Of a DNA stretch of 64,000 bases, positions 7,179 through 52,885 are shown piece by piece; the stretch's first letter is position 1; every line of letters starts with the position of its first letter. The stretch is from assembly GCF_900660745.1 (NCBI RefSeq), contig NZ_LR215048.1, positions 1,364,001 to 1,428,000 of the forward strand, in the 5' to 3' direction. Under the pieces are notes generated by a model that had not been told where the DNA came from, ran no database searches, and saw nothing but the letters and a program-made list of their open reading frames with translations. This DNA comes from Haploplasma axanthum (GTDB taxonomy: Bacteria > Bacillota_I > Bacilli_A > Acholeplasmatales > Acholeplasmataceae). Position numbers and translations under genes: made by a program.

Positions 7179-7204
7179 TTAAAAGAATCCATACATAACG
7201 GAAA

Positions 7205-7247
7205 GAGCCGATAAAATGAGATTGTATTAATCTCATTTTATCGGCTC
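7205..7247. terminator. Bidirectional terminator between orf9 and orf6
   Basis: A perfect 18-bp stem, GAGCCGATAAAATGAGAT and its complement, has a 7-base loop. It lies 27 bases past the orf9 stop and overlaps the orf6 stop. The position between convergent genes supports termination in both directions. The T-run is weak. Confidence 0.75.
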
Positions 7248-7426
7248 TGCGTCTTTGCGTCTGGCTCTGTAATCACAGTTACTTTGAACTGCTTTATTTC
7301 AATTAAATTTTCTTGTCTGCATTTCGGACAATAGAGGGGGAATTTTTTTAATTCAGTATCTTCCCTTATCTTTAATCGTGTTTTATTTCCACATACAGGA
7401 CACAATATCCACTTGTAGTTTATAAT
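7238..7426 (-). CDS. orf6: Tn916 Orf6-like cysteine-rich KTR-domain protein
   Basis: This short protein of about 62 residues contains ILCPVCGNKTR and YCPKCRQEN, the paired CxxC knuckles of the Cys-rich KTR family found downstream of tet(M) in Tn916 elements. It ends in KTQSR before the terminator. Function is not known; a small zinc-ribbon protein is likely. No ATG, GTG or TTG lies at the right distance behind AGGAGGAG (about 7433-7440). The first plausible codons there are ATA, GTT and ATT, so the start is uncertain and may be ATT at 7426. It follows tet(M) on the same transcript. Confidence 0.72.
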   Translation of the reverse strand: MINYKWILCPVCGNKTRLKIREDTELKKFPLYCPKCRQENLIEIKQFKVTVITEPDAKTQSR

Positions 7427-7523
7427 AACTATCTCCTCCTTTACACTTTAATTCAAATCTTTATTAAAAAATATTTCATCTTATTTAACAAGAAACCATA
7501 TTTATATAACAACATAAAATACA

Positions 7524-9443
7524 CTAAGTTATTTTATTGAACATATATCGTACTTTATCTATCCGACTATTTGGACGACGGGGCTGGCAAACAGGTTCAC
7601 CGGTAGTAACATGGTACCCTTTTAACTCTGTTAAACAAACACTACGTCCATTTGTAAAGAAAGTTAAATCACTACGATATTCTTGAATACACCGAGCAGG
7701 GATTTCTCCACTAAGAATGACCTCATTATTTTTCAATTGAGTGTCTACGATGTTCGCACAATATTTAGGAGCATCGTTGTATGCTCGTGAAAGATATTCC
7801 TGTGGCGCATAAATTTTAAAACTAAGATATGGCTCTAACAATTCTGTTCCAGCTTTTTTTAAGACTTGTTCCAATACAATAGGAGCAAGCATCCGAAAAT
7901 CTGCTGGGGTACTAACAGGGCTATAGTATAAGCCATACTTAAAACAGATTTTACAGTCCGTCACATTCCAACCATACAATCCTTGTTCACAGCCATAGCG
8001 TATCCCCTCCATAACTGCATTTTGAAACGATTGATTTAAGTATCCAAGAGAAACCGAGCTCTCATACTGTACTCCGCTCCCTAATGGAAGCTGTGCTACA
8101 GATAGACCAATGGAAGCCCAGAAAGGATTCGGTGGAACTTCGATGTGAATGGTATACTCTGCTTTTTTTAACGGTCTTTCCATATAAATGACTGTAGGCT
8201 CTTTTATTTCTATCTCCACATGATACTTTTCTTGCAGCAGAGCACAAGTCACTTCCATTTGTACTTTCCCTAAGAAAGAAAGTATGATTTCATGTGTCGC
8301 AGAATCCACATAATATCGCAGAAGCGGGTCACTGTCGGAGATTTCTAAAAGTGCATCAAGTAACATTTCCCTTTGTTGAGGTTTGCTCGGTTCAACAGTC
8401 GTTTGCAGCAGAGGGAGGGGATTTTCAATTCTCTCTCTCTGTGGCAATAGCTTTGTATCTCCAAGAACACTATTTAACTTCAAAAACTCATTCTGCAAAA
8501 TAACAATTTCCCCGGAATAAGCCTTATCGATTTTACATAATTCACCATTTATTGAAGTATACATTTCTGTAATTTTTATTTTTTCCTTTTCCGATATTCT
8601 AACCGAATCTCGCAAATGCAGTACGCCACTATAAAGACGTATATATGCAAGACGCTGTCTTTTTTCCGAATACTCAATTTTGAAAACTTTTCCGCAAAGT
8701 TCAGACTGACCTCGATGTGTTGATGAATAAAATTTATTCGTAATCACTTCTATAAGGTTATCAATCCCTATATTGTTTTTTGCACTTCCGTGATAAACAG
8801 GGAACAGGGAACAATTATGAAATCTTATGCTTTCCTCTTGTTCGAGTTCTAATGCTTCCAATAATTTCCCAGACGTATATTTCTCCAAAAGGTAATCATT
8901 TCCTTCTATTACCATATCCCATTGTTCAGATTCGGTAAAGTTCATTACACGCATATTAGGATGCAGTTCTACCTTCTGTTTGATTACAATTTCCGCAGAA
9001 AGTTTCTCTTTAATATCCTGATAAACCGTTGATAAATCAATTCCATTTTGGTCAATCTTATTGATAAAAAAGATTGTGGGAATACCTATTTTCCTAAGTG
9101 CATGAAACAATATACGAGTTTGTGCTTGTACGCCATCTTTTGCAGAAATCAGTAGAATTGCCCCATCTAATACTGATAATGAACGATATACTTCTGCTAA
9201 AAAATCCATATGTCCTGGCGTGTCTATGATGTTCATCTTAGTATTTTTCCACTGAAAAGAGGTTATCGCCGTCTGAATTGTAATTCCTCTCTGACGTTCT
9301 AAAAGCGTATTATCCGTTTTCGTTGTACCTCTGTCCACGCTTCCTAATTCTGTAATCGCTCCACTGTTATATAATAAGCTTTCTGTTAAGGTAGTTTTTC
9401 CCGCATCAACATGAGCTAAAACTCCAATATTAATAATTTTCAT
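7524..9443 (-). CDS. tet(M): Tet(M) ribosomal protection protein, tetracycline resistance
   Basis: This 639-residue EF-G-like GTPase removes tetracycline from the ribosomal A site. It has the G1 motif AHVDAGKTT, the G3 motif DTPGHMDF and the G4 motif NKID. The C-terminus carries the family-typical region ([17 protein letters not shown]). I start it at ATG 9443, eight bases behind GGAGG; the in-frame ATG at 9458 overlaps that ribosome site. The length equals known Tet(M) and no frameshift is seen. Expression is controlled by the transcription-attenuation leader upstream (9444-9750). Sequence differences from the textbook protein suggest one of its mosaic alleles. Confidence 0.98.
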
Positions 9444-9478
9444 GTGATTTTCCTCCATTCAAAAGCCCAAAAGGGCAT

Positions 9479-9518
9479 AAAAATCCCAGTGATAAATACT
9501 CTTATCACTGGGATTTTT
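9479..9518 (-). terminator. tet(M) leader terminator/attenuator hairpin
   Basis: A perfect inverted repeat, AAAAATCCCAGTGATAA and its complement around a 6-base loop, ends in TTTTT on the minus strand just 36 bases before the tet(M) start. It matches the Tn916 attenuator that stops most transcripts without tetracycline. Confidence 0.9.
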
Positions 9519-9523
9519 ATGCA

Positions 9524-9690
9524 TAACCATAGGCATACAAAGCATACAGATATTCTCCGGATACTTTAGAATCACATGATAAAGGTATTCTTAAACTGGG
9601 TACAAAAAACTAAGCCCTCCTAAAAAAGGACATCCAATTATTTGTTCCCACTATCAAATTGACAGTTTATTTAAGAATACCTTGCCGCAT
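9524..9690 (-). promoter_or_regulatory. tet(M) leader (orf12 region) with leader frames and antiterminator arms
   Basis: The leader holds a tiny ORF (ATG 9690, MRQGILK, behind AAAAGGAG). It also holds a downstream frame ending GEYLYALYAYGYA just before the attenuator; this frame lacks a canonical start. The long inverted repeat AAGGTATTCTTAAACTG (9582-9598) / 9663-9683 can fold with a 4-base bulge. In Tn916, ribosome behaviour on the leader under tetracycline decides whether transcription passes the 9479-9518 terminator. All of these parts are still present. Confidence 0.75.
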
Positions 9691-9721
9691 ATTTATTAAC
9701 TCCTTTTAAATAGATACTTAA

Positions 9722-9750
9722 ATAATAGCACGTAAGAGCATATTTGTAAA
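9722..9750 (-). promoter_or_regulatory. tet(M) promoter
   Basis: On the minus strand, TTTACA (9745-9750) and TATTAT (9722-9727) are separated by exactly 17 bases, at the position of the Tn916 tet promoter. Transcription would run leftward through the leader into tet(M). Confidence 0.8.
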
Positions 9751-9819
9751 GGAATCTCCAATTTTTTATCAAAGAGAGTACGTGATTACAAAATAGCTGT
9801 AATAATGTACCAATATTTG

Positions 9820-10570
9820 TTATTCTATAATCTTCCAATTACTCCCGTTCTTTTCAAGTACCAAATCAAATTGAGATACCTGCGTTGCTTTGGTCTGCTG
9901 GTCGATATACTCCACTGTCAGCGATACCGTGACTTGATTATCCTTACGATTGTGAATAGGATTTACCAGTTCTTGAAAGATGTACTCTTTTCCGATTGGT
10001 TTTAATATCCCGTCATTCACATAGTAGGAAAGTTCACTGGCTGTCGCTGTAGGATAGAGCTTGAAGAACGTCGTTAAAAACTCATTGATTTCATTGGTTG
10101 TAATGGAATCAACCGTCCCCTCACTTTCAATGGCTTTTGGTTTATAACTTGATTTCTTAGGTATGTTGGTAATGGTCGGATTCTTAACCAGTACCATATT
10201 TCCAGAACCATCTACATAGACACTCACTATATAAGCAGAGTGGACGGTCTTTGTATTTTCTCCCTCTGTAATGAGCTGGTCTACACTGTAGGTTACATTA
10301 AACTCATTGTCGCCAGTTGGCTCTACCGTCCATATCTGAAATCCTCTTACAGAAGACGATACAGGAATATCTTTGCGTACTGTATCAACATTGAGAGCTT
10401 GAAGTTCATCTGTCAGATAGCCTTTTAGACTTTCCATTCGATTATCAATGGACTTATCGGATTGCTCCCATGAATAGTAGACTTTCGCAAAGTTCTCTAC
10501 AAAATTTTCTACATGATGAGTATCAACGTATTCCTTTTCTATGATAGTTGTTTCGTGAATAGTATGAGTA
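9820..10570 (-). pseudogene. orf13: Tn916 Orf13 (TcpC-like transfer protein), N-terminus lost
   Basis: About 250 residues match the C-terminal periplasmic-type domains of Tn916 Orf13, a VirB8/TcpC-like conjugation-channel protein. Two NTF2-like domains can be seen, ending NGSNWKIIE. The N-terminal cytoplasmic part and the membrane anchor (about 60 residues) are missing because the transposon is truncated near 10570. Without the anchor and the rest of the transfer operon it should be non-functional. Reading begins by chance from an ATG at 10575, just across the junction. Confidence 0.92.
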
Positions 10571-10798
10571 TACAATTTGAAATAAATGTCTATATTCGTG
10601 TGTTATAGCTTTAGCACATTCAAAATAATCATTTTTAAATTTTCTGTTTATTACAATACTAAATTTAGGTTTTATATTTAATCTACTGTCATCTAAAATA
10701 GTATCATCAAATGATATTGGTATTTGTTCTATGTTAAAGTACTCTGATACTTTTTGAGAGAGTAATTCTATCTTTTTTTGCATATTTATGTCAGACAT
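10571..10798 (-). pseudogene. Metallopeptidase-like gene truncated by the Tn916 junction
   Basis: From ATG 10798 the frame encodes about 75 residues ending in AKAITHEYRHLFQ, an HExxH zinc-protease motif with a spacing like ImmA/IrrE-type peptidases. After ...FQIVYS the sequence switches to Tn916 orf13 DNA in another frame and stops at 10523. The third zinc ligand and the rest of the fold are lost. In phages and mobile elements such peptidases often cleave repressors, but the substrate here is unknown. The gene follows the recombinase operon by 71 bases on the same strand. Confidence 0.7.
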
Positions 10799-10869: not shown

Positions 10870-12456
10870 TTATTCTTTAGCCTTAAATTTTAACCCGTTA
10901 TTAAATTTAAATGTTATATTCTTGTTACGATTCACTGTTCCTGATTCAACCATCAACATCCATATTCGCTCATCCCATTTATCAATGTCACTTTCAGATT
11001 TACGTAGTGCTTTTAAGAATGCTCTCATTTTAATTTCTAATGATTCTTTTTTAAATCTTTCACTTAATAGTTCCTCAAGTTTTGTTTTTAATTTTTCGTG
11101 TCTTGTTTCTAACGTTTTATACTTTTTTTCAAATTCATTTGAATTATCAGTTGTTTTTGAGTTATCTTTAATTGCTTTTGTTGCAAGTTCCACAACTACT
11201 GCTATCTCTTCACTAACTTTTTCAATTTCTGTTTCTAAATCTTTAGTATTAGCTACTAATTCAATTACTTCATTTAAATCATTAATAATTCTTTTTTTAT
11301 CTTTCATTGTTATATTATACGCTTCTATAAACTTTAATTTAATATCATCTTCAGTTAAATGTGGAGTCCTACATATGCATTTGTCTTTATCAAACTTATT
11401 ATTACATTGATAAACAAACCTTTCATATTTGGTATTTGAATGCCATTTCTTTTTACCATAGAAACCTCCACAATCACTGCATATCAATTTTGATGCAAAT
11501 ATATCAGATGATGAATACTTAGCTCCAAGGTTATCTCTTCTTTTAATTTCAATTTGCACTAACTCCCACATATCTTTATCAATAATAGCTGGATGGCTGT
11601 TTTCCACATAATACTGTGGTATCTGTCCAGTATTTTTTATTATGGTTTGCTCTAAAAAGTTATCAGTAAATGTTTTTTGAAGGAGAGCATCACCTTTGTA
11701 TTTTTCATTTTGAAGTATTGAAGTGATATTATTTTTGGTCCAGTTAGTTGATTTCTTTGAAGGAGTTTTTATTCCTCTTTCTTTTAATTCCTTAGCTATA
11801 CCTGTTGGAGTTTTCCCATAAACTAAAAAGCTTTTATATATTTCTCTTACAATCTCTGCTTCTTCTTCAACAACAACTATTTTGTCATCTACTTTTTTAT
11901 ATCCCAGAAAATTACTATACGCAAATGATACTTTACCTGATTGAAATGCCACACGCTTCCCCCATTGAACGTTCTGACTAATTGATCTTGATTCTTCTTG
12001 TGCGATTGATGCCATTATTGTAAGTATTAGTTCACTTTTAGAATCAAGTGTCCACAAATTTTCCTTTTCAAAGAAAACCTCGACACCTTTTTCTTTTAGC
12101 TTTCTAACATATGAAATAGTATCTAATGTGTTACGGGCAAATCTTGATATCGATTTAGTAATAATTAAGTTTATCTTTCCATCTAGCGCATCTTTAATCA
12201 TTTTATTAAAGCCGACTCTCCTCTTAGTGCTTGTTCCAGTTATACCTTCGTCAGCATACACAGTTACAAACTCCCAATCAAGTCTACCTTGAATATACTC
12301 TTTATAATAATTGACTTGCGCTTCATAACTAGTGTATTGTTCATCAGAACTTGTTGATACTCTGGCATATGCAGCAACTTTTAATTTTTCTTTGTTGTTC
12401 ACTGGCATTTGTGTTAATGGATCAATTGTTGATGGAATTACTGTTACTTTTGTCAT
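10870..12456 (-). CDS. Large serine recombinase, second of a tandem pair
   Basis: This 528-residue site-specific recombinase has an N-terminal resolvase domain with the nucleophile Ser34 in AYARVST and the EESRSIS helix region. A recombinase domain follows (about residues 175-290, TPTGIAKELKERG...). Then come a zinc ribbon (CSDCGG ... CNN ... C) and a long coiled coil (about residues 385-470), the parts that control synapsis in large serine integrases. It overlaps the upstream recombinase gene by 4 bases (ATGA). It probably acts with its partner in integration and excision. Full length, no obvious defect. Confidence 0.93.
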   Translation of the reverse strand: MTKVTVIPSTIDPLTQMPVNNKEKLKVAAYARVSTSSDEQYTSYEAQVNYYKEYIQGRLDWEFVTVYADEGITGTSTKRRVGFNKMIKDALDGKINLIITKSISRFARNTLDTISYVRKLKEKGVEVFFEKENLWTLDSKSELILTIMASIAQEESRSISQNVQWGKRVAFQSGKVSFAYSNFLGYKKVDDKIVVVEEEAEIVREIYKSFLVYGKTPTGIAKELKERGIKTPSKKSTNWTKNNITSILQNEKYKGDALLQKTFTDNFLEQTIIKNTGQIPQYYVENSHPAIIDKDMWELVQIEIKRRDNLGAKYSSSDIFASKLICSDCGGFYGKKKWHSNTKYERFVYQCNNKFDKDKCICRTPHLTEDDIKLKFIEAYNITMKDKKRIINDLNEVIELVANTKDLETEIEKVSEEIAVVVELATKAIKDNSKTTDNSNEFEKKYKTLETRHEKLKTKLEELLSERFKKESLEIKMRAFLKALRKSESDIDKWDERIWMLMVESGTVNRNKNITFKFNNGLKFKAKE

Positions 12457-13754
12457 TTCGCGCTCCCTCCTCCATATCTTTTTAACGTGTGTTGTCTTGC
12501 TTGTTCTTTCATGTCATCAGTCCATCCTTCACTTCGTGGTTTATGAGCCCATTCGTATTCTTTGACACTTCCATCATTTAATTCAAAACGAAGTATATTG
12601 TTTGGCTGTGCTACTACTTGCTGAACTAAATGTTTAAAAATCGGCATACTAAACTTGTTCATGTTTAACAGATGAATTGCGGCTTCTTTAATCTTGTCAT
12701 CAGGCACTTGTTGATTATCACAGTAGCTTTTACCTTTATCTCTAAATGTCGAACAAATCCAATAAATGTTATAAGGTCCCCTCCTATATGTATGCGTTTT
12801 TCCACATTTCCCACATCTGATATACCCTTTAAATTCATTATTATAACTTGAACTTTTGGCAAATTTCAGAGCTTTGCTTTTCCTTATTGCCTGAGCTTCC
12901 ATAAATATTTCTTTGCTTATAATTGGTTCGTGGGAATTACTTACAATGTATTTATCAAGTTCACCTTTATTATGCTTTAACTTTTTAGTCAAATGATTAT
13001 CAATAAAGGTTTTTTGAAGGATTAAATCACCAGTATAATTATAGTTTGCTAATATTTTTGTGATTGTTGTTACACCCCAAGTTTTTGTTCTGTATGGTTT
13101 TATTCCTTTTTCATCAAGTATAGTTCTAATCATTCTGTCTCCATAACCTTCTAAATATAGGCTATATATAAATCTAACTATTTCAGCTTCTTCTGGAACA
13201 ATATGATATTTTTTATTTTCAAGTTTATAACCAAACATTGATGTACTACCCCATATAAGTCCTTTTTCAAAATCTTTCTTAATTCGCCATTTCATATTTT
13301 CGGATATACTTCTTGACTCTTCTTGTGCAAAAGTCGCTAAGAACGTTAAGATCATTTCACCTTCACCACTTAAAGTATGTATGTTTTGTTCTTCAAAGAA
13401 AATGTTAACATTGATTGCTTTTAAGTCTCTCACTGTTTTTAATAGTGTCATTGTGTTTCTTGCAAATCTTGATATTGATTTTGTAATAATCATATCAATC
13501 TTACCCGCTTTACAATCACTCAACATTAGCTGGAACTCATCTCTCAACTCTTTTGTTCCAGTAACTGCCTCGTCCGTATACACTCCTACAAATTCCCACT
13601 CAGGTTTACTTTTAATATAGTTTTTGTAGTGGTTCACTTGTGAGGCTAATGAGTTAAGCATTGCATCTTTACCACTTGATACTCTGGCATAAGCAGCAAC
13701 TCGCAGCCTTTTTGGCATTTCTTTTATCGTTTCAATTTTTGTTATTTTTTTCAT
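12453..13754 (-). CDS. Large serine recombinase, first of a tandem pair
   Basis: This protein of about 433 residues has a resolvase domain (nucleophile Ser26 in AYARVSS), the EESRSIS motif, a recombinase domain and a zinc ribbon (CGKCGK ... C ... C). It has a short C-terminal tail and lacks the long coiled coil of its neighbour. Start ATG 13754 is chosen because AAGGAGGTGG lies 8 bases upstream. The size pair (about 433 + 528 aa, overlapping genes) recalls the ccrA/ccrB arrangement of staphylococcal cassettes. Two cooperating recombinases with different C-termini are likely. Confidence 0.92.
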   Translation of the reverse strand: MKKITKIETIKEMPKRLRVAAYARVSSGKDAMLNSLASQVNHYKNYIKSKPEWEFVGVYTDEAVTGTKELRDEFQLMLSDCKAGKIDMIITKSISRFARNTMTLLKTVRDLKAINVNIFFEEQNIHTLSGEGEMILTFLATFAQEESRSISENMKWRIKKDFEKGLIWGSTSMFGYKLENKKYHIVPEEAEIVRFIYSLYLEGYGDRMIRTILDEKGIKPYRTKTWGVTTITKILANYNYTGDLILQKTFIDNHLTKKLKHNKGELDKYIVSNSHEPIISKEIFMEAQAIRKSKALKFAKSSSYNNEFKGYIRCGKCGKTHTYRRGPYNIYWICSTFRDKGKSYCDNQQVPDDKIKEAAIHLLNMNKFSMPIFKHLVQQVVAQPNNILRFELNDGSVKEYEWAHKPRSEGWTDDMKEQARQHTLKRYGGGSAK

Positions 13755-13789
13755 AACTTCCACCTCCTTGAGCGTACTCTATTAATCAC

Positions 13790-42776: not shown

Positions 42777-43964
42777 CTATTTGTCTCCTTCTTTTATAAT
42801 CTCTGCCTCTTTTCGAGGATCTTCATCTGGGACTAAACTTAACGAGCCCGTCTGCATTTCTAAGTGAGGTGCAATTAAACTATTAAATCTTTCTTTTCCT
42901 AATCGTTTAGTTAATTCGGTTATCCCTGCCACTTTGCTTTCAACATATGGATCAATTTCTAAACTTTTGCAAATTTTAATTACCGCATCTTCATTAACGA
43001 TCTTTCTACTGCCCTTACCATAAACTAATTTAAATCCGTTCCACTTGTGTCCATCTATCGCTTTCTTAAGTACATGTTTTTTTAAGTCTTCTGCATACTT
43101 TATGAATTCATCAAGTTTTGGTAGGATTTCCTCAATTTCTTTATCCGTTAATAAATTAAATGCTTTGTTCATTTCTTGTGTAATCTCAAGATTTACTTCA
43201 GCTCTTTTACTGCATACAGCATTTGCTGAACAATATCTACAATGTTTGCCTGGATTAGCTTCCGGATTTTCTTCTTTAGTTCTAATAACTGCAGGGCGTA
43301 GAACCATCGCTTCAAACACTAGTAAATCGTCTATATCCATTTCATATTCATTTGTATTTGAAATTACCGGTTGATAAACTATTAATCTTACCTTTTTGAT
43401 TGGATATAAATCTTTGTATGCTTTATAGAAATAAAGTGCATAAATTCCTAATTGTGAATTAAACATTTTAGTTTCATCATCAAATGTATAAACTGGTATC
43501 CTTCCAGTTTTTAAATCAATTACAGTGAGGGTTCCACCATTCATAGATGAGATGATTCCACAATCTAATGTCCCTTTAGCATCTTCATCAAAGTCCATCT
43601 TTAAAAGCTGCTCAATAATAATTAATGGTTTCTCACCAGATCTTGTTTTTTCAAACTCAAATGTATTAACAACAAAATCTGCATAACCATCAGCAATCTC
43701 CTGCATCTCAGGTGAATACATATCAAGCTCTTTAATTAACTCTTCTACCGGCTTACTTTCATTTTCATAATCAATAAGCTTTAAAGATTTATTAATTAAT
43801 GCTGAACTTAATTCATGACACTGAGTTCCAAATTCTGCTTGTGGGCTTATCTCTTCACCACTACCATCATTCAATAGAGTGCTGAGTGGACAATTTAGCC
43901 AAATATTACTTTTACTTGGACTATATTTTTTACTATGAGTCGTTGAACTATTTCCCACTTTCAT
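42777..43964 (-). CDS. DUF2800 Cas4-like PD-(D/E)XK exonuclease
   Basis: This 395-residue nuclease of the DUF2800/Cas4 type has the N-terminal SKSNIWLNCPLSTLL with the first Cys. The catalytic residues are in GTLDCGIIS and TVIDLKTGR (D ... DxK). The C-terminal cluster CRYCSANAVC offers the remaining iron-sulphur ligands. It resects DNA ends for recombination with the ATPase downstream. The start is ATG 43964 or GTG 43958; both lie close behind AAGGAGGTGATG. Confidence 0.88.
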   Translation of the reverse strand: MKVGNSSTTHSKKYSPSKSNIWLNCPLSTLLNDGSGEEISPQAEFGTQCHELSSALINKSLKLIDYENESKPVEELIKELDMYSPEMQEIADGYADFVVNTFEFEKTRSGEKPLIIIEQLLKMDFDEDAKGTLDCGIISSMNGGTLTVIDLKTGRIPVYTFDDETKMFNSQLGIYALYFYKAYKDLYPIKKVRLIVYQPVISNTNEYEMDIDDLLVFEAMVLRPAVIRTKEENPEANPGKHCRYCSANAVCSKRAEVNLEITQEMNKAFNLLTDKEIEEILPKLDEFIKYAEDLKKHVLKKAIDGHKWNGFKLVYGKGSRKIVNEDAVIKICKSLEIDPYVESKVAGITELTKRLGKERFNSLIAPHLEMQTGSLSLVPDEDPRKEAEIIKEGDK

Positions 43965-44106
43965 CACCTCCTTTATCTGGCTTGTCTTTTGGAGTTAACA
44001 TAATCTCCTGAGCCAAAACTTTACTGGTTTCACTAATAAGTAGTAATGTTTCTACAAGATCTTTATTAGTGAGACTTTTATCCTTGTCTTTTGGATCTTT
44101 TTCCAT
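43948..44106 (-). CDS. Small phage protein (52 aa)
   Basis: This ORF encodes 52 residues (MEKDPKDKDKSLTNKDLVET...), lysine- and glutamate-rich with one amphipathic helix. It starts at ATG 44106 with GCGAGG upstream, and its end overlaps the DUF2800 start by 17 bases, so translational coupling is likely. Small charged proteins in this position are common ahead of DUF2800 genes. Function unknown. Confidence 0.65.
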   Translation of the reverse strand: MEKDPKDKDKSLTNKDLVETLLLISETSKVLAQEIMLTPKDKPDKGGDESGK

Positions 44107-44183: not shown

Positions 44184-44714
44184 TTATCTAAACTTTGTTG
44201 CTTTTTCTTTTAATTTTTCAATTAACCTAACTCTTCTCTCTTGAACTGATGAAGTTGCCCTATTAATTGCTACACCAATTTGTGCATCTGTATATCCTTC
44301 AAAATGAAGTCTAATAATTGTTTGTTCTATCTCTTTAAACTCAGATATTAATTCCCATAAGTAATCCACAAGATCCTCTTCTTGTTGTTTTTCTATATTT
44401 TCTGCATAAGAAGGATCTGGAAATTCATAATTATATTTATCTTTTAGGTCATCCATTGAAACAGGACACTTTTCTCTTGCTCTGTTTTCTCTTCTTTGCT
44501 CATTCCTATTTAGATTTCGATGTTTATGAAAATACTCCTCAGTACATGGAACAAATCTTCTATGTCCATCAATGTCTATAAAATGTATCCAATTTGTTAA
44601 TCTGATACCTTGTTCGTCAAATATTCCTTTATCAATTTCTTTTTTTAATACTTCTAAATCTCCATATCCATAAATATTTGGATACATATCTTTTTCTTTT
44701 TTTGTTTTATTCAT
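44184..44714 (-). CDS. Phage early regulator with sigma-70 region-4-like HTH
   Basis: This 176-residue protein has a helical N-terminal part and a basic middle (RNLNRNEQRRENRAREK). The C-terminal HTH is FEGYTDAQIGVAINRATSSVQERRVRLIEKLK, resembling sigma-70 region 4. It is the first gene of the leftward phage operon, downstream of a long structured leader (44715-45000). It may control early transcription. The start ATG 44714 follows GGAGG. Confidence 0.78.
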   Translation of the reverse strand: MNKTKKEKDMYPNIYGYGDLEVLKKEIDKGIFDEQGIRLTNWIHFIDIDGHRRFVPCTEEYFHKHRNLNRNEQRRENRAREKCPVSMDDLKDKYNYEFPDPSYAENIEKQQEEDLVDYLWELISEFKEIEQTIIRLHFEGYTDAQIGVAINRATSSVQERRVRLIEKLKEKATKFR

Positions 44715-44779
44715 TAAAAAAACCTCCGCTTCAGTGTTAATCCTGAAATGAAGGCTTCTTAATAGATCAAGGCATGTAG

Positions 44780-44960
44780 AAAAAACGGATTACAAAAACC
44801 TTGAAATTTCGGATTTCTCCATTTCAAATGTTTGTATCCACTCTTTCCTTATAAGAGTTGATCTTGATTAAATTTCATTCATTGAAATTAAGGACCGTTT
44901 GCTGCAGCAACGGAAGTAAATGAATGTTTGAAAGAACGATAATACTATTAGCTTCTTTCA
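44780..44960 (-). ncRNA. Candidate structured RNA / leader with terminal hairpin
   Basis: On the minus strand, five stems follow one another. (1) TGAAAGAA/TTCTTTCA (44929-44960). (2) CATTCATT/AATGAATG (44876-44926) enclosing CCGTTGC/GCAAACGG (44895-44913). (3) AATTTCA/TGAAATT (44871-44889), which shares bases with the outer stem of (2) and so excludes it. (4) ACTCTT/AAGAGT (44840-44858). (5) A long terminator-like hairpin (44787-44839) followed by GTTTTTT. This could be a small RNA or an attenuating leader of the gene at 44714. No known family recognised. Confidence 0.55.
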
Positions 44961-45000
44961 TCACTATTCTACATCTTAAATACTTGATAAAAAACGTCCA

Positions 45001-45033
45001 GCAGCCGGCAATAGTCGGCACCGAGACGGCAGA
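45001..45033. other. GC-rich island in the divergent control region
   Basis: About 33 bases with three spaced CGGCA units (CCGGCA, TCGGCA, ACGGCA) in otherwise AT-rich DNA. Read on the minus strand, it is followed by GGACGTTTTTT, so it may be part of a terminator or RNA stem. It may equally be a cluster of operator half-sites. Confidence 0.45.
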
Positions 45034-45142
45034 ATTAAATCAGTTTTTTAAAAGTGCAAAAAATAGTATTAACATTACCTATAAACAAAATTAAATATAT
45101 GTTTTTTTGTAATATTATTGCTGTTTTAGTTAGTTGATTAGA

Positions 45143-45171
45143 TTGTGAAAAAACCGCTTACATGATATAAT
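45143..45171 (+). promoter_or_regulatory. Promoter of the regulator-Hachiman operon
   Basis: TTGTGA (45143-45148) and TATAAT (45166-45171) are 17 bases apart, 37 bases upstream of the HTH gene start. It is the only strong consensus match in the gap. Confidence 0.75.
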
Positions 45172-45208
45172 TTAATAAAATAAACATGAAAATGAGGAGG
45201 AATTATAG

Positions 45209-45412
45209 ATGACATTCTCATATAACAAATTATGGAAACTTTTAATAGACCATAAGATGATAAAAAAAGATCTAATGGACAAAGCAAAGATCAATGCCAC
45301 TACTATGTCTAACATGAGTAAAGGGAAGTCGGTCAGTCTTGAAACATTGGGTCGTATTTGCAAAGCGCTAAATTGTAATATTGGCGATATCGTTGATTTT
45401 ATCAATGATTAA
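45209..45412 (+). CDS. Small Cro/CI-type HTH regulator ahead of the defence genes
   Basis: This 67-residue single-domain XRE-like regulator (HTH_26 type) contains IKKDLMDKAKINATTMSNMSKG as helices 1-3. It has a strong ribosome site (GAGGAGG). It is divergent from the phage early operon and cotranscribed with the defence genes 26 bases downstream. It could repress its own promoter and perhaps the phage early promoter. The prophage otherwise has no visible CI-type repressor. Confidence 0.85.
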   Translation: MTFSYNKLWKLLIDHKMIKKDLMDKAKINATTMSNMSKGKSVSLETLGRICKALNCNIGDIVDFIND

Positions 45413-45438
45413 TTTTATCTGAAAAGAGGTGATTATAT

Positions 45439-46893
45439 TTGAAAAAATTATGTCTCGGTACTCTTCTTCGTATATTATGTGATGCTAGAATACCCACTTC
45501 AAAGCAATACTTATTTTTAAATGATCTATTATCTACTGTAAAATCTGATCCTAGTTATATTGACTCTAAGGCTCAAAGTGCTTTATTATCTGGCAAAAAC
45601 AATCTTACACATTATGATGATATTTTAACTTGTGATAAAGATAGACTAAAAGATAAATTTGAAAATAATATTAAACCTTATTTTAACGAAGATAGTCAAA
45701 AACTAATTATTATATGTATCCAGGATGTTCTAAAAGAGGATACAGCTATTAAAGAAACTGATAATATAGGTTTTGAAACTGATGGATATACTAAACAAGA
45801 CATAATCACTAAACAAATATTTCCATTTTCAGAGTTTTTAACAAATGTATATTATTATTGCACCACAGAAGTTGAGAACATTCCATATAAGGCTAATATT
45901 GCTGAAATTAAAGATTATACCAAAAAACAGACTGGTAGAATTAATGATGTTCAACTAGAGACCGCTGTAACTCACGTTAGTTCAAAAGTTAAATTATCAT
46001 TAGATCCACAACCATTCAGCACGGTTTTTAAAGAAGTTAAATATCTTAAACTTGCCATACCAAATCCTAACGATTTAAAAATTTATAGATTAGATGTAAC
46101 GAACAGCAAAATTGACTATAATAAATTACACGGTTTTATTGCTGATAACATTGGAAGATATATTTATTCACGAGGATCTCGAAATCGCTATAATTTAGAG
46201 AAAAATTCAATGCACTTAGCAATAAAAACATTAAGGGCTTATCACGATAGAGTTAGAAAAACACCAACTACAAATCACTTTAATGAAATCATGCTATATT
46301 CATTTCTTGAATGCATTTTAGGTGCACCTAAAATTTTTTCAAAGATGGAATTACAAAACAAAAGTGGCATGTATGATAGCCTTTCATCAGGAATCCATAT
46401 AAATACTTTTAAAAATGGTGGAATGTTTTTTAATCAACTTATTTTTGGAGCTACTGATACAATAGAAAATTTAGAAGACGCAGTGGATAACGCTTTAAAT
46501 CAAGTATTATCTATACAATCTGCTTCAAGTAGTGAGTATGAATTTTTAGAAAACACAATCTTAAACAATGAATTTGATGTTGAAACCAATAAAGCTTTAG
46601 AGAGTATGATTATCCCTGAAAAGGGATCAGGATTAACAAAACCTGATAATGCTTTTGGCTTATTTTTAGGATATACAGTGAAAACTCCTTATGAACCTGA
46701 TAATACTATTTACTCTGCAAATCTAGAAGCGCAAATGGATATAGATATAACCAATATTTCTACATACTTAGAAAAAAGAATCACAGCTTTAAAGTTATTG
46801 AACTATTCATTTTATGTTTATGTGCTTCCACTAAATGATGCCATAATTGACAAAGAAACTATAATGAAAAATGCATTGGAGGTGAGTAAGTAA
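45439..46893 (+). CDS. hamA: HamA-like protein (DUF1837), long variant with altered nuclease motif
   Basis: The product has 484 residues from TTG 45439 behind AAGAGGTGAT. The C-terminal ~290 residues follow the DUF1837/HamA pattern: FNEIMLYSFLECILGAPKIFSKM (E283, K302), then SSGIHI, then QLIFGATDTIENLEDAVDNAL. In the family as I remember it, these last two read GxDGxH and GExKxY (the D-ExK nuclease site). Here Ser317 and A338-T339-D340 stand there instead. The N-terminal ~190 residues are an extension not seen in typical ~300-aa HamA. It overlaps hamB by one base. Hachiman HamA-HamB complexes sense damaged or phage DNA. Confidence 0.72.
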   Translation: MKKLCLGTLLRILCDARIPTSKQYLFLNDLLSTVKSDPSYIDSKAQSALLSGKNNLTHYDDILTCDKDRLKDKFENNIKPYFNEDSQKLIIICIQDVLKEDTAIKETDNIGFETDGYTKQDIITKQIFPFSEFLTNVYYYCTTEVENIPYKANIAEIKDYTKKQTGRINDVQLETAVTHVSSKVKLSLDPQPFSTVFKEVKYLKLAIPNPNDLKIYRLDVTNSKIDYNKLHGFIADNIGRYIYSRGSRNRYNLEKNSMHLAIKTLRAYHDRVRKTPTTNHFNEIMLYSFLECILGAPKIFSKMELQNKSGMYDSLSSGIHINTFKNGGMFFNQLIFGATDTIENLEDAVDNALNQVLSIQSASSSEYEFLENTILNNEFDVETNKALESMIIPEKGSGLTKPDNAFGLFLGYTVKTPYEPDNTIYSANLEAQMDIDITNISTYLEKRITALKLLNYSFYVYVLPLNDAIIDKETIMKNALEVSK

Positions 46894-49499
46894 TGAAACC
46901 TCGTTATGCAACTCTTGGTGAACATATATATTATAAACTTGAAGAAAATGAGTATTTAAACGAGCTCTATGAAATCATCTTATTTAATTACTCAATGGAT
47001 TTAATGGGTTCACCACAAAGAAAAAAACCTATAAAAAAAGAGCATGCTTTGCGTTTTGCTGACATACTCTCTAAATCATATGGACAACCCAACTCTGAAA
47101 AACATCGTGCTTGGGCTCAAGAAATAATTGCTTTATTAAACGCAACATACTCTGATGATGCAGTAATAAAAGCATATGCTACTTCTGTTTTGGCAAACAT
47201 TGGTAATTACCGTGGATTACAACTTATTAAAACTAAATATAAAAACACTTCATTTTTGGATGAACTTTACCAGAGTTTTGATCTTGATTATCTTAAAATA
47301 CCACATCAGGAAAATATGTATTTTTTTCATCCTCAAAAAGAGATATACGATCATTTGAGTGACAAATCTTTTTCTTATTCTGGTCCAACTTCAATGGGCA
47401 AATCACTTGTAATGAGAACCTTTATTAAAGACAAAATAATGAATGATTTTAAAGGTAATTTTGCAATTTTAGTTCCCACTAAGGCGTTAATTAGCGAAAT
47501 ATCTTCAAACATTATTAAAATTGATTTACAAGATGAGCTTAGTAATAAAAATTACAAAGTGGTTACATCAGGAAACTCACTATTTTTTAAACAAGAAAAC
47601 TTAAACTATATTATGGTTATGACACCAGAAAGGCTGTTGTATACTTTAATATCTTATCCTGAAATGTCAGTGGATTATCTTTTTATTGATGAAGCACATA
47701 AACTGTCAGAAGCGGATGGTAGAGCCACTTTTTACTTTAAAGTTACCGATATGTTAATAGAGAGACCAAGAAAACCTCGCGTTATTTTAGCATCACCAAA
47801 TATACCAAATCCAGAAATATATCTTGATGCACTCCCGAGCGAACAAATTAATAATCCTACATATTTAAGAACAACTTTTACTCCAGTTAGCCAAATGAAG
47901 TATGTTTTAGATACAGTATCTAAAGAATTTAAAGTCTTTAATGAGCGCACTAATAAAAAGGACCCTTTCAAAACTATCTATTCGTTAAATGAAGCAGATA
48001 CAACTCTTGTTTTAATTCAAAAGATTATACAAAAAGACCTAAATAAATCTAACATTGTTTACTGTTCTGGAAGAGATAGAACTGTAGAAATGGCCAGAGA
48101 TTTCGCTAAATCGCTCCCGTATTTAGATAACAAAATACTAAACGATCTAGCAAAAGAGATCGAGGATGAAATTCATTCAGATTATTATTTAGCAGATATC
48201 ATAAGAAAAGGCGTCTCTTATCATGTTGGATATTTACCTCTATATATAAGGTCCAAAATTGAAGATCTTTATAGGAATAGAGATATCAAAACAATTTTCT
48301 GCACTTCTACTCTTATTGAAGGAGTAAATCTTCCTGCCGATAATCTTATAGTAATAAGTGTGAGAATAGGTCGAAAGGGAAACATGAACCAAGTAGAATT
48401 CAAAAACTTATTGGGACGTGTTGGAAGAATTGAATACAATCTTTATGGTAATGTATTTATTATTCGCGACTCTAATATGGCTGAAAAAACAATGAATAAC
48501 CTTCTTCTAAATGATGTGGAAAATCAAGAAATATCCCTAAAAACACAATTAAATAATGAAACTAAAGAATACATTATAAATCAGTTTTTAAATGGGAGTT
48601 CACAACTGAATCCTCTCCCAGAACAAAAGCCTAATGAATATGATTTAATGAGAAAAACTGGTCTCATTTTATTAAATGATATTACTAAAAATAGGAACAG
48701 TGTTGTGAGAAAACAATTTAGTCATTTACTTGATGAGCAAAAAATTGATACTATAAAATTATTGTTTGGAATAAATAATTCCACTAAACCAAAACCTGAT
48801 GATGATATTAATGTATCCTTAGATCAAACAGAAAATTTAATATCGGCTATTAACAATGGACTGAAGTATCCTGAGTTATTAGATGGCCGTGTTCAATACG
48901 ATGATTTAGTTAATTTTTTGTCGGAATTAAGAAAGATCTTTAAATGGGATGTCTATGAAAAAACAACACTGGGGCTTGGAGACAGAATAAAATATTATGC
49001 AGTTATACTTTCTCGATGGATGAATGAATATGGTTTAAGTTTTTTATTAAAAGAAACAATTGATCACGCAGCTGAAAATAATGGCTTTGTAAATAAAAAC
49101 TATGAACTTATACCTTATAATGGTTCACAAGAGCATAAAAACTTAATAATTGGTGATACTCTCCAAATTATAGAAAATGTTATTCTATTTAGTCTTGCTA
49201 ATTATTTTCTTAGATTTTCAACCGAGTATAAAAAATTAAAAACTAATAATGAACCCTTCGATAATGACTGGTATGAATATGTCGAGTTTGGTTCAACTAA
49301 CCAACTTACTATATTTTTCCAAAGAAACGGACTAACGAGAGAAACAGCGGATTACATTCGTAGACATCAAGAATATGTTATTTACACTCAACAGGGTTAT
49401 AAATTGAAGAAATCACTTCTTAATTGTGGAAAGAGATCTGTGGAGGATGAAATCGCAGATATATTATTTAACGTTCCAGAATTATTTATTAATGAATAA
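46893..49499 (+). CDS. hamB: HamB-like SF2 helicase of a Hachiman defence system
   Basis: This 868-residue superfamily-2 helicase has Walker A GPTSMGKS (residues 164-171), DEAH (266-269), motif III-like LASPNIPNP and motif VI LLGRVGRIEYN. The large C-terminal region (about residues 560-868) is helical and typical of HamB. Start ATG 46893 overlaps the hamA stop (TAATG) after GGAGGTGAG. It should use ATP to scan DNA and control HamA. All helicase motifs look intact even though the HamA active site does not. Confidence 0.85.
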   Translation: MKPRYATLGEHIYYKLEENEYLNELYEIILFNYSMDLMGSPQRKKPIKKEHALRFADILSKSYGQPNSEKHRAWAQEIIALLNATYSDDAVIKAYATSVLANIGNYRGLQLIKTKYKNTSFLDELYQSFDLDYLKIPHQENMYFFHPQKEIYDHLSDKSFSYSGPTSMGKSLVMRTFIKDKIMNDFKGNFAILVPTKALISEISSNIIKIDLQDELSNKNYKVVTSGNSLFFKQENLNYIMVMTPERLLYTLISYPEMSVDYLFIDEAHKLSEADGRATFYFKVTDMLIERPRKPRVILASPNIPNPEIYLDALPSEQINNPTYLRTTFTPVSQMKYVLDTVSKEFKVFNERTNKKDPFKTIYSLNEADTTLVLIQKIIQKDLNKSNIVYCSGRDRTVEMARDFAKSLPYLDNKILNDLAKEIEDEIHSDYYLADIIRKGVSYHVGYLPLYIRSKIEDLYRNRDIKTIFCTSTLIEGVNLPADNLIVISVRIGRKGNMNQVEFKNLLGRVGRIEYNLYGNVFIIRDSNMAEKTMNNLLLNDVENQEISLKTQLNNETKEYIINQFLNGSSQLNPLPEQKPNEYDLMRKTGLILLNDITKNRNSVVRKQFSHLLDEQKIDTIKLLFGINNSTKPKPDDDINVSLDQTENLISAINNGLKYPELLDGRVQYDDLVNFLSELRKIFKWDVYEKTTLGLGDRIKYYAVILSRWMNEYGLSFLLKETIDHAAENNGFVNKNYELIPYNGSQEHKNLIIGDTLQIIENVILFSLANYFLRFSTEYKKLKTNNEPFDNDWYEYVEFGSTNQLTIFFQRNGLTRETADYIRRHQEYVIYTQQGYKLKKSLLNCGKRSVEDEIADILFNVPELFINE

Positions 49500-49560: not shown

Positions 49561-50685
49561 TTATAGTAATCTTCGTCTTCGTTCAACTATAACTTCCTCG
49601 TGCTTAAAAAACTCCTCTAAAGTAAAATCCTGTTGCATCATGTTGGATAAATGCTTAGACCAAAAAACGTTTGTTGGTCTCGAAGGAGGAAGCACACACT
49701 TTTTAATTGAATCCCAAACAAATCTATTTCTATTAACAGATTCATCATGTGTAAAGTCAAGGTTATTAGGATGATTCTTATTTTTTATACTAAAATCCAT
49801 AATATCAATAGCTTCAACTTGAATAGGATCATAGAGTATATTATCACCAATTCTTTTACCAATAATAACACTTGGATGATTGTCACAATAGTCTAATAAA
49901 TTACCCGTATATACTTCTGATTCATATTTTGCTTCTCTTAGATGCTTTCTTAAATTCAGCATAATTTTGTTAAATTTATTTTTATTATTTTCTTCTAATG
50001 TTTCATATTTAATACTATGCATTGCAAAATACGCCATTGTTAAATCAAGATCTAATGCAACATCAGCATTCAAATATTCAACAGCTGGATTAAATAATGT
50101 AATGTTACCGCTGTGACTTTCTTTACTATTTTGTTGACCACCTCGAATCGATACAAATAAAAAACCACTCCATTTTTCATTTCCAATACCACCAGATATA
50201 TCTTGTTTCAAGTAAAAATCAGAATAATTATTTTCGTTAATTACTACTACATTTCCTTTATAATAAACTTCTGTGTTTTGTAATAATTTATTAAAATATT
50301 CTCTCTGATGAAATGATGACGATGTGCCTGTTTCACTTCTAAAAGTAAGTATAGCAGAAACATTTTCATCACTACCAATTCTATTAATGAGTTCAATAAA
50401 TGTTGGATTGTCTCTGTTTTCTTCATTAAAATAGTCCTCATTTACTAATTCAACTGTAACTCCACCACTAAATGAATCCAGTTGTTCAATTGTCAAATTA
50501 TTATCCCTCACTGACGACCAGGTGATTAAAGATCTGTTTTTTCTGTGAGTACGTCTTTGAAAAATCTCAAGTGGCACACTATAACTTCCTGTTTTACCAC
50601 TAATATTTGTAAATTTTGTTCTTATATCTTCATGGAATGAACCAAGAAAGTTAAACACCTCTAACCTTGTTTGACTACGTGTCAT
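49561..50685 (-). CDS. Unknown 374-aa protein beside a DNA methyltransferase, possible restriction enzyme
   Basis: I do not recognise the family. The N-terminal part (RSQTRLEVFNFLGSFHED, about residues 3-20) is helical. The middle is beta-rich (VSAILTFRSETGTSSSFHQREYF; IGNEKWSGFLFVSIRGGQ). The C-terminal third carries LPPSRPTNVFWSKHLSNMMQQDF and ends in a basic RRRR tail. No clear PD-(D/E)XK, HNH or GIY-YIG motif is visible. It follows the methylase gene by 142 bases, with a terminator between them, so it probably has its own promoter. The pairing suggests a type II-like restriction enzyme, but only by position. Confidence 0.55.
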   Translation of the reverse strand: MTRSQTRLEVFNFLGSFHEDIRTKFTNISGKTGSYSVPLEIFQRRTHRKNRSLITWSSVRDNNLTIEQLDSFSGGVTVELVNEDYFNEENRDNPTFIELINRIGSDENVSAILTFRSETGTSSSFHQREYFNKLLQNTEVYYKGNVVVINENNYSDFYLKQDISGGIGNEKWSGFLFVSIRGGQQNSKESHSGNITLFNPAVEYLNADVALDLDLTMAYFAMHSIKYETLEENNKNKFNKIMLNLRKHLREAKYESEVYTGNLLDYCDNHPSVIIGKRIGDNILYDPIQVEAIDIMDFSIKNKNHPNNLDFTHDESVNRNRFVWDSIKKCVLPPSRPTNVFWSKHLSNMMQQDFTLEEFFKHEEVIVERRRRLL

Positions 50686-50725
50686 ATAAACCCCTCTATT
50701 CTCTTTGTTTTTTATAACAAAAAAA

Positions 50726-50750
50726 GTTATAATCTTAATAAGATTATAAC
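50726..50750 (-). terminator. Terminator between the methylase and 374-aa genes
   Basis: A perfect 11-bp stem GTTATAATCTT / AAGATTATAAC with a 3-base loop is followed by TTTTTTT on the minus strand, 78 bases after the methylase stop. Separate control of the two genes is likely. Confidence 0.85.
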
Positions 50751-50827
50751 AGTTTTGAGATAGTTTTACAATGAAAACTTATTAGTTGATAATGGTAATA
50801 TCTAGTTAATTTACTTTCTTTTAATTA

Positions 50828-52885
50828 TTATTTCTTGAATATCTTTTCTAAGGATAATTCATAATATTCTTTATTCAGTTCAATTCCCAAACCCTTATAA
50901 CCATTTTGTAGTGCCCATTTAAGTGATGTACCACTACCTAAGTATGGGTCGAGAATATAATCATCTTTTAAAGTAAAATCCTTTAATAAATCTACCAATT
51001 CTAGTGGATAAGGAGCAGTATGTTTATATGTATTTTCGCCCTTTGAATTTATTTTAATTACTGGATTGATTTTTACTACTTTACTAGGGTTCTTTTTTGA
51101 TGTTCCTTTTAAGAAAACTAGGACATGCTCATAGCAGTTGATACATTTTACATAACCCGAAAATAAATTTACAGTTGAATTTCTTTTAGATTGTACTTGA
51201 CCTTTATCCCAAATGATATTACCAATAAGATTAAAACCTGCAATTTCAAATATCATTGAAGATAGAAATCCTAACTGAATTCTTTTCTTTGACATAAGGG
51301 ATACAACATAAACATTATCTTCAGCAACGATGTCACCTATATTATATAAATAATATGAATCCTCTTTTAAGGAATTGTATACTGCATCAGCATTTAAAAG
51401 CATATCAACAAAATAAAGTATCATGTTTCCCCATTGTGAGTATTCTCTTGCATTATAATATGGTGGGGACGTAATGGCTGAACCAACTTGAGCAGGTTTT
51501 AGTTTATTTAAAAAACTGGTAGAGTTATCATTAATTACTTCTATATCTTTTTCCAAAACTATATTTCGTTTAGTATTTTCTTCTTTACCATCAAAGATAC
51601 CCTTAAATAAATTAAATATTGGCAACTTTTCAAATTCTTTCACAATATTTAAAGCCGTTTTTGTTTCATTTGTAATCTCATTCGTAATGTTTCTACCATA
51701 AGAGTTTATATTGTTAACATTTTTAACTAGTATATTTTCATCATTATATGAATAGTTTTTAATTAAATATTTTTTCCAATCAGCATCATTATCAAATATA
51801 TCTCTTCGCCAACTGTAATATAAATCATCATCTATTTGATTAGACTCTGAATTCTTTGCTAGTTTAAAATATCGATAAGTACCATATTCATCAAATCGTT
51901 TACCCCTTCCAGACTTACTTCTATCTGGGCAGGATGGGTTTGCACACTCCCAACTTTTTATAAATACCTCAGGATAAGAATTACCTCTTTGTTCTGTAGT
52001 AAAACATGAAGGGCAAGGTACATTAGAATTATCTAATTCAATTTTTTTAAGGATTAAGATTTTAGTTGTTTGATTTTCACTTATATATAAATCTTCAAAT
52101 TTGTAGCCATATGACATTCCATCATAAAAACTTAAAGCCAAAGTTTGAGCATTTTTAATATTTTTCTCATCTAGAAAATTAGCTAAAATTTTTGTTTGAT
52201 TTTCACTTTTAAAAGCATGGAATTTTTCTGTATGTTGTACAAAATTTTCAGCATAAATACCAGCCTTATAAATCAATTGCCAAGTCTTATCAAAATCATT
52301 TTTATCTTTAATATTATCAGCAAAAACTATAGCCAAGTGCCTGTAGTTAATTAATTTATCATATGTATTAAATATAAATTCATTTATAAAATTAGGATTA
52401 TAATCATTTCTTTCAAACTCAGCTTGATCAACTTTGTAAATCATTAACGAATAATCTACATTAGAATATTTTTCTTTATAGTAATCTAACCATTTATCAG
52501 CGTGTCTGCCGATTTTATTGCCTTTTTCTAAATCCATAATATTTGTTTTTAATGATTTAATAATTTTATCAGGATCATATGTTTCTAGTCTAGAGTAAAA
52601 ATCATTAAAGACTTCTTTTAATTCCTCTTCATTGTATGTAAAAGTTCTAATTTTATATTCTGAAAACTCTTCTGTATCCAATAATTCATCTCTAAAATAA
52701 TAGTACTTCCTAAATTTATTTCTCATAACTGTATTGAAAACAATATCGTTTTCTTTTTGTATTCTTTGTAATTCAACTACAAACTCTTTGTCTTTTTTTC
52801 TAGTCATTTCAAATACTAATGAAATTAATAACTTATCAGGAATATCCATATTTAATTTATCTTTTACTTTATCAAATTCTTTCAT
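50828..52885 (-). CDS. Large DNA amino-methyltransferase with zinc-ribbon insert
   Basis: This 685-residue protein has a long helical N-terminal region (1-300) and a zinc ribbon (CPSC ... CANPSCPD, about 305-335). The C-terminal beta-class methyltransferase has motif IV SPPYYNAREY (residues 473-482) and motif I DPYLGSGTS (about 650). SPPY suggests N4-cytosine or N6-adenine methylation. The ribosome site AGGAGG is strong. It is unlike the phage ParB-methylase, being larger with its own DNA-reading parts. It may be the modification half of a restriction-modification system with the 374-aa protein, or a solitary methylase. Confidence 0.8.
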   Translation of the reverse strand: MKEFDKVKDKLNMDIPDKLLISLVFEMTRKKDKEFVVELQRIQKENDIVFNTVMRNKFRKYYYFRDELLDTEEFSEYKIRTFTYNEEELKEVFNDFYSRLETYDPDKIIKSLKTNIMDLEKGNKIGRHADKWLDYYKEKYSNVDYSLMIYKVDQAEFERNDYNPNFINEFIFNTYDKLINYRHLAIVFADNIKDKNDFDKTWQLIYKAGIYAENFVQHTEKFHAFKSENQTKILANFLDEKNIKNAQTLALSFYDGMSYGYKFEDLYISENQTTKILILKKIELDNSNVPCPSCFTTEQRGNSYPEVFIKSWECANPSCPDRSKSGRGKRFDEYGTYRYFKLAKNSESNQIDDDLYYSWRRDIFDNDADWKKYLIKNYSYNDENILVKNVNNINSYGRNITNEITNETKTALNIVKEFEKLPIFNLFKGIFDGKEENTKRNIVLEKDIEVINDNSTSFLNKLKPAQVGSAITSPPYYNAREYSQWGNMILYFVDMLLNADAVYNSLKEDSYYLYNIGDIVAEDNVYVVSLMSKKRIQLGFLSSMIFEIAGFNLIGNIIWDKGQVQSKRNSTVNLFSGYVKCINCYEHVLVFLKGTSKKNPSKVVKINPVIKINSKGENTYKHTAPYPLELVDLLKDFTLKDDYILDPYLGSGTSLKWALQNGYKGLGIELNKEYYELSLEKIFKK

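Follow-up and report, generated by a model that had tools for sequence, protein, structure and literature searches.

Genomic context of the leader

The window (the whole stretch of 64,000 nucleotides that was analysed) belongs to a genome that consists of a single contig of 1,883,099 bases. On its minus strand, a gene for a sigma-region-4-like protein that starts at 44714 (the 44714 gene) is followed by genes for a DUF2800 nuclease-like protein, an AAA protein, a helicase and then a primase, and this gene set, judged from its content, is the early operon of a prophage. The likeness of the 44714 gene product to phage sigma factors (phrog_351 and phrog_36) sits in its C-terminal part, and a Pfam search of the protein gave no match. 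The operon is adjoined on the plus strand (45209-49499) by a gene for an HTH_26 regulator of 67 amino acids, at 45209, and by the Hachiman defence genes for HamA and HamB; at two related loci, L003 and L010, a 640-aa regulator-like gene lies where the window has these three genes.

Further elements were noted elsewhere in the window. Over 6500-10572, tet(M) segments of Enterococcus and Ligilactobacillus plasmids are 97% identical over 95% of a 4.3-kb query, and this probably explains the Enterococcus-type Rfam matches SQ2397 and sRNA_0030 in a mollicute genome. A pair of adjoining large serine recombinases (phrog_95) is encoded on the minus strand at 10870-13763, in a window that has both a prophage and a tet(M) element. 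On the same strand at 49561-52885, near a tRNA-Leu at 53323, a 374-aa protein without a Pfam match is encoded beside a type II DNA methyltransferase, and the two genes are, from their sequences, a probable restriction-modification pair.

Between the divergent gene sets, the leader described below is preceded by a separate terminator-like hairpin (Table 1); a similar hairpin lies before the leader in some relatives, and in the window no minus-strand gene is visible for the hairpin at 45028-44989. The hexamer TAGAAT is a possible but weak -10 element for the leader transcript and was not listed by the promoter scan. Between this hexamer and the leader lies a dyad, GAAAGAA-GC-TAATAGTATTA-TC-GTTCTTTC (44927-44956), with a related half site at 45061-45071, which might serve as the operator of a repressor; additional occurrences of the dyad core TAATANTATTA across the window are at chance level (25 found, 17.7 expected).

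Table 1. Positions of the leader, its parts and neighbouring features in the window
Feature	Position	Strand	Sequence and basis
DUF2800 / PD-(D/E)XK gene, second in the early operon	42777..43967	-	PF10926, E 6.8e-84
Gene for the 176-aa sigma-region-4-like protein, first of the early operon and the putatively regulated gene	44184..44714	-	phrog_351, E 4.5e-6; phrog_36, E 1.3e-5
Whole structured leader RNA, 219 nt, ending at the start codon of the 44714 gene	44712..44930	-	R2 and nhmmer
SD-sequestering hairpin, 11 bp + 6 bp, with GGAGG and U-run in the 3' arm	44717..44760	-	MFE fold, alignment
Shine-Dalgarno GGAGG	44723..44727	-	sequence
Antisequestor target, shared with the SD hairpin (5' arm)	44744..44753	-	CUUCAUUUCA; sequence comparison
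Core domain, closed by P2	44765..44863	-	GAUCAA/UUGAUC (44863-44858 with 44770-44765); MFE structure
P2b/P3, taking in the T-run 44785-44780	44781..44845	-	AAGAGU-GGAU-ACAAA with UUUGU-A-AUCC-GUUUUU; MFE fold, alignment
P4 hairpin	44801..44827	-	UUGAAAU-GGA-gaaa-UCC-gaa-AUUUCAA; MFE fold, alignment
Antisequestor strand in the core, 10 bp with 44753-44744	44817..44826	-	UGAAAUGGAG; best partner of the SD-hairpin arm, 4/300 shuffles as good
Pseudoknot strand 2	44846..44851	-	UAAGGA; complementary to 44894-44889
5' hairpin	44876..44926	-	P1 CAUUCAUU/AAUGAAUG (44926-44919 with 44883-44876), inner P1b CCGUU/AACGG (44913-44909 with 44899-44895)
Pseudoknot strand 1, unpaired in the 5' hairpin	44889..44894	-	UCCUUA; complementary to 44851-44846
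Possible -10 hexamer, weak	44966..44971	-	TAGAAT; sequence only
Separate terminator-like hairpin with U6, outside the leader	44989..45028	-	CGUC.CGGUGCCG/CGGC.GCUG.GACG; z -2.83, 1/200 shuffles

A conserved structured leader 5' of the 44714 gene

The original prediction had placed a multi-hairpin RNA with alternative folds at 44780-45060. The stems that it described on the minus strand are present (the hairpin with U6 at 45028-44989, the dyad at 44956-44927, P1 at 44926/44876 and nested P3/P4 at 44839-44787), and the interval does hold structure, but it fuses the upstream terminator-like hairpin and the dyad with two thirds of the leader, counted from its 5' end, and stops short of the final 66 nt, in which the SD hairpin lies. 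Folding of this interval gave a z of only -1.91 on the minus strand (7 of 200 shuffles as good) and a better value, -3.27, on the plus strand, and an Rfam scan of the region returned, both far below threshold, a Glutamine riboswitch with 21.7 bits (plus strand, cut-off 35) and rli38 with 19.3 bits (minus strand, cut-off 49). Taken alone, the modest z without an Rfam match is weak evidence; a loose base-pair descriptor failed to discriminate, being equalled in 96 of 1000 shuffles, and chance stems in AT-rich intergenic DNA could also give such results. The probability that we leave to chance stems after the comparisons that follow is negligible, as they are refuted by a covariance model that was built without the window.

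Homologues of the 44714 protein were found on IMG/VR contigs and in two genomes of the same family, and a conserved leader lies immediately 5' of their genes. We refer to the leaders before the closer 44714 homologues as subtype A and to the window's own leader type with its nearer relatives as subtype B. The best match of a subtype A sequence profile (15 leaders, window excluded) in the window was 44828-44716 on the minus strand, at 16.6 bits and E 1.9e-4, the next having E 13; the maximum on shuffled sequence was 8.7 bits (100 shuffled windows, 6.4 Mb) and 8.6 bits (5,000 local shuffles of the leader). Scanning with the same profile also gave L125 (genome G020) and L116, the nearer relatives of the window leader.

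The covariance model R2 was built only from the four homologous prophage leaders L116, L052, L230 and L125, with the window left out, and it matched the window leader over its entire length (1-228/228) at 82.8 bits, E 3.1e-15, the runner-up being a plus-strand match of 14.5 bits. Over the whole genome the window leader was found with E 9e-14, and across the order R2 found the leader in 4 of 160 genomes. A subtype B profile in nhmmer recovered the window leader at 63.9 bits, L039 proved to be a further subtype B member (61.6 bits), and R2 reached 30.1, 24.7 and 23.1 bits on the subtype A leaders L020, L010 and L027. A short shared motif matched in 5 of the 160 genomes, with none for the reversed control; four of the five are leaders (G000, G003, G020 and G151), and the fifth, L252 in G075, was rejected as a chance match with no leader. 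Among 80 viral stretches with this motif, L204, L230 and L240 passed a filter for carriers of the leader. Other searches were less productive: the subtype A model R1 did not find the leader in the window (7.1 bits), four weight matrices derived from single blocks of subtype A supported it weakly or not at all (353, 4251, 143 and 2461 of 5000 shuffles as good), and a search of phages and plasmids for DNA closely related to the gap yielded nothing of use, a 53-nt phage match falling in the HTH coding region.

When folded at the borders given by the homologues (44925-44714, minus strand), the leader had a z of -4.77, with 1 of 200 shuffles as good, and full-length folding of relatives gave -4.37 (L125), -7.22 (L116) and -6.11 (L027). 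The covariance analysis of homologous gaps that had been put forward as a check found covariation in both subtypes. In the subtype A alignment (11 cores, 10 of them distinct, without the window) two-sided changes occur in 10 of 42 pairs, and 90.6% of the cells pair as against 32-45% once the partners are slid; in a five-sequence subtype B alignment that includes the window the changes affect 14 of 61 pairs, with 84.2% pairing vs 34-51% when slid. At the level of sequence comparison, these data demonstrate a real, conserved, structured cis RNA with covariation, and they support the proposal of a cis-acting leader with alternative folds before the 44714 gene, which relatives have retained through compensatory changes. 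A different conserved leader, TTAACCATTCGGGTGGAGAA...TTGCTCCGATA..GGCAACAACATTGTCTACAAAATT, was seen before the more distant sigma-like homologues of L160, L165 and L167, most strongly in L165 and L167.

Architecture of the leader

The helices listed in Table 1 are supported unequally by the alignments. In the 5' hairpin, two-sided changes are seen in relatives at 3 of 8 P1 pairs and 2 of 5 P1b pairs, and the equivalent of the pseudoknot is 100% paired in subtype A, with both sides changed at 4 of 6 pairs. P2 is the weakest helix on the five-sequence alignment (63% of cells paired), and the P3 pairing GGAU/AUCC of the window is GUAC/GUAC in relatives.

The T-run at 44785-44780 had been read in the original prediction as the end of a nested terminator-like hairpin. 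P3/P4 are indeed followed by this run 66 nt before the gene, but it is mostly a paired strand of the core: subtype relatives keep it as CGTTTTTTCnnCATGCC and its partner is AAGAG/GGGG, so that it belongs mainly to a helix, P2b, of which it forms the 3' strand. A stand-alone small RNA ending at 44780, as had been suggested, would agree with the resemblance of P3 and U6 to a terminator (z -1.97, 13 of 200 shuffles) and is nevertheless highly improbable, given that the T-run is paired and that, in the aligned relatives, both conservation and structure extend past it, across the SD hairpin and as far as the start codon. The conserved element is more probably a leader than an sRNA.

Mutually exclusive pairings of the core and the SD hairpin

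We compared 27 leaders from which near-duplicates such as L010, L014, L017, L020, L022, L040, L041 and L149 had been left out, although those remaining are still not independent. In the predicted folds of all 27, every base of the SD is paired within a hairpin. In 26 of them, no upstream segment pairs better with the 5' arm of this hairpin than the core strand around GAAAUGGAG, which lies 89-118 nt before the start codon. The only exception is L157, whose contig begins inside the core and for which a different arm was picked automatically; on inspection by eye, GAAAUGG(A) is able to pair with the arm of L157. The pairing of arm and core strand was equalled by at most 15 of 300 shuffles in 25 of the 27 leaders and by at most 3 in 15 of them, while in L038 the partner is also the core but 16 of 300 shuffles were as good. 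Compensated forms of arm and strand are found as CGAGAUGGA/UCCAUCUCG in L116, GGAAUGGAGG/CCUCCAUUCC in L113, GAUAUGGAG/CUUCAUAUC in L026, AUGGAAGU/ACUUCCAU in L038 and UAAAGAUGGA/UCCAUCUUUA in L080. Within the switch helix alone, two pairs show two-sided changes in alignment A4 (a number reached by 31 of 500 shuffles) and two in A5 (157 of 500); these changes are few and unexceptional in the narrow alignments, and the strength of the case therefore lies in the wider comparison of leaders.

Two pairings thus compete, as the original prediction had said of two of its stems, but the conserved competition is the one between the core strand 44826-44817 and the SD for the arm 44753-44744. The leader has two mutually exclusive conserved pairings of which one hides the SD, as is characteristic of a riboswitch or translational switch. 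Conservation, covariation, burial of the SD and exclusion of one pairing by the other are all established by comparison of sequences and their predicted folds; that the exclusion is used for regulation is what we infer from them. With the core-arm pairing forced, the fold of the window leader lost 14.9 kcal/mol of stability relative to the OFF fold and those of four other leaders lost 7.2-21.2 kcal/mol, the pseudoknot not being counted, and in the forced fold of the window the SD took other partners. Because the core-arm state is costly, the leader is predicted to be OFF at equilibrium.

Most leaders carry GGAGG followed by a U-run of 5-8 nt straight before the start codon, and the leader might accordingly be a transcription attenuator, with the SD hairpin and its U-run (44760-44716) as intrinsic terminator, the core strand as antiterminator and the U-run after P3 (44785-44780) as a second possible terminator. 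The U6 behind P3 in the window and the exclusion of the SD hairpin by an upstream pairing would fit such an arrangement, and a U-run behind the SD hairpin is what the leaders often have in common with attenuators and intrinsic-terminator switches in general. Both U-runs, however, sit in helices of the window fold, the terminator scan listed neither, and the SD hairpin persists without a U-run in L125, L157 and L039 (L039, like L108, was found later and read by eye only), so that the run is not shared by all members. We regard attenuation as rather unlikely, and translation is favoured over termination because these three leaders retain the hairpin without the run.

Control by a leader peptide was weighed on the same set minus L057, L066 and L069. 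In this reading, translation of a short ORF from an AUG in P4 (44822 in the window, MEKSEISRFL) would open the core, and the start is ATG in 23 of the 24 leaders and CTG in one. What follows the start is not conserved: the ORFs range from 2 to 245 codons, their stops fall from -98 to +633 and all three frames are used, and on this variation of length, stop position and frame the candidate ORFs were rejected. L039 moreover has GUUGG at the AUG site, the RF02960 consensus has c at the corresponding place and no SD lies close by, which leaves peptide control improbable. The AUG itself, kept without the frame behind it, could mimic the SD arm.

Relation to DUF2800 RNA

The DUF2800 RNA (RF02960) reportedly stems from a 2017 study of 224 candidate structured RNAs. 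Its model did not match the window leader at the gathering score of 60.2 bits, nor at E up to 10 over 44700-45215, and L116 was likewise without a match. The statement that the RNA matches no family is nevertheless not supported, since relatives match RF02960 at the leader position below the cut-off (L017 at 16.1 bits, G031 at 21.4 and G034 at 30.5, the top score among the 160 genomes of the order; L125 over the full length of the model at 24.2), and L087 and L113 exceed it with 88.7 and 122.4 bits, both just 5' of a sigma-like gene. Conversely, R2 matched the threshold-level DUF2800 RNA of L087 from end to end up to the start codon, though weakly (13.6 bits, E 1.8). Across the phylum, RF02960 gave one weak match in 392 genomes and none over the cut-off.

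The two RNAs are also alike in position and architecture. Each occupies the 5' end of a phage early operon in which a sigma-like gene and the DUF2800/DUF2815/primase set follow, and in the window the DUF2800 gene (42777-43967) is the second of the operon. Both have, in this order, a 5' hairpin, an unpaired strand complementary to a loop of the core, and a P2 that encloses P3 and P4. The complementarity of the 5'-hairpin strand to the P2-P3 loop, UCCUUA/UAAGGA in the window, covaries in relatives; the corresponding pseudoknot of DUF2800 RNA was read by us from the Rfam consensus and is absent from the annotation of the Rfam model. A difference is that the Rfam model ends after P2, with the SD hairpin and the core-arm pairing lying beyond it, yet both are present in L087 and L113. 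By sequence and structure, the window leader is a divergent relative of DUF2800 RNA that falls below the Rfam cut-off. In L091, a gut-2 RNA was matched by Rfam at 4388-4435 (+), about 4.6 kb before the primase, in the part in which similar phages have a DUF2800-type leader.

Proposed mechanism and implications

The explanation that we consider best, and hold to be probable, is that the window encodes a structured 5' leader of the early mRNA in which sequestration of the SD gates translation and is released by core-arm pairing. The unpaired UCCUUA of the 5' hairpin would form a pseudoknot with the nested core, and the hairpin that buries the SD would come next. In the OFF state, with the core folded, the arm 44753-44744 would be available to the SD region as a pairing partner, and the sigma-like gene would not be translated; transcription may also stop at the SD hairpin where a U-run follows. 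In the ON state, with the core opened or late to form, UGAAAUGGAG would capture the arm 44753-44744 and free the SD, which would need folding during transcription, a ribosome or a core-opening factor. We presume that regulation is exerted at the level of translation and that the state would be set by a factor acting on the pseudoknotted core. The first genes behind the leaders differ (phrog_11138, phrog_13787 and another kind in L132 and L039), and this diversity speaks against simple autoregulation by a single protein. From its position, the leader may plausibly act at the lysis-lysogeny boundary.

Riboswitches and protein-binding leaders are a general class of RNAs that gate translation by sequestering the SD. 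The candidate leader resembles them in its sensor-like core and its mutually exclusive sequestor and antisequestor, and it differs in being without a known ligand or protein and in a predicted equilibrium that is strongly OFF. The put RNAs of phage HK022 bring about antitermination at the start of the phage early operon; by description rather than sequence they can be set beside the leader as structured RNAs at that position, whereas the structure in the window is tied to the SD of one gene. If the pseudoknotted RNA likewise bound RNA polymerase or a protein and caused antitermination through the whole early operon, the SD hairpin would be secondary; the position at the 5' end of the operon, the elaborate pseudoknotted core and the varied first genes downstream would all be in keeping with this. 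We think it unlikely, as coevolution of the core strand with the SD-hairpin arm ties the core to the start site of the first gene.

As far as the literature that we searched shows, DUF2800 RNA has so far been an orphan among predicted cis-regulatory phage RNAs, and in that literature, with the original description outside it, no mechanism was proposed. The location of the window leader is itself ordinary, but the RNA is conserved and uncatalogued, with a conserved SD platform that is absent from the Rfam model. The SD hairpin, and with it the competition for its arm, falls immediately beyond that model and offers a testable mechanism for DUF2800 RNA, and since the window holds a divergent subtype in Acholeplasmatales prophages that Rfam misses, the class is wider than catalogued. 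We tentatively suggest, as a possibility that is less likely than not, that the window leader and the DUF2800 RNAs together make up a single broad class of phage RNA switches, in which the pseudoknotted core would sense a molecule or protein reporting the state of the host or prophage and the competition for the arm would decide on translation of the early (lytic) regulator. If the core does sense something, the leader may, by acting on translation, control whether the lytic cycle is entered, and if the wider suggestion is true, an orphan Rfam family would gain both a mechanism and a role in the control of lysogeny.
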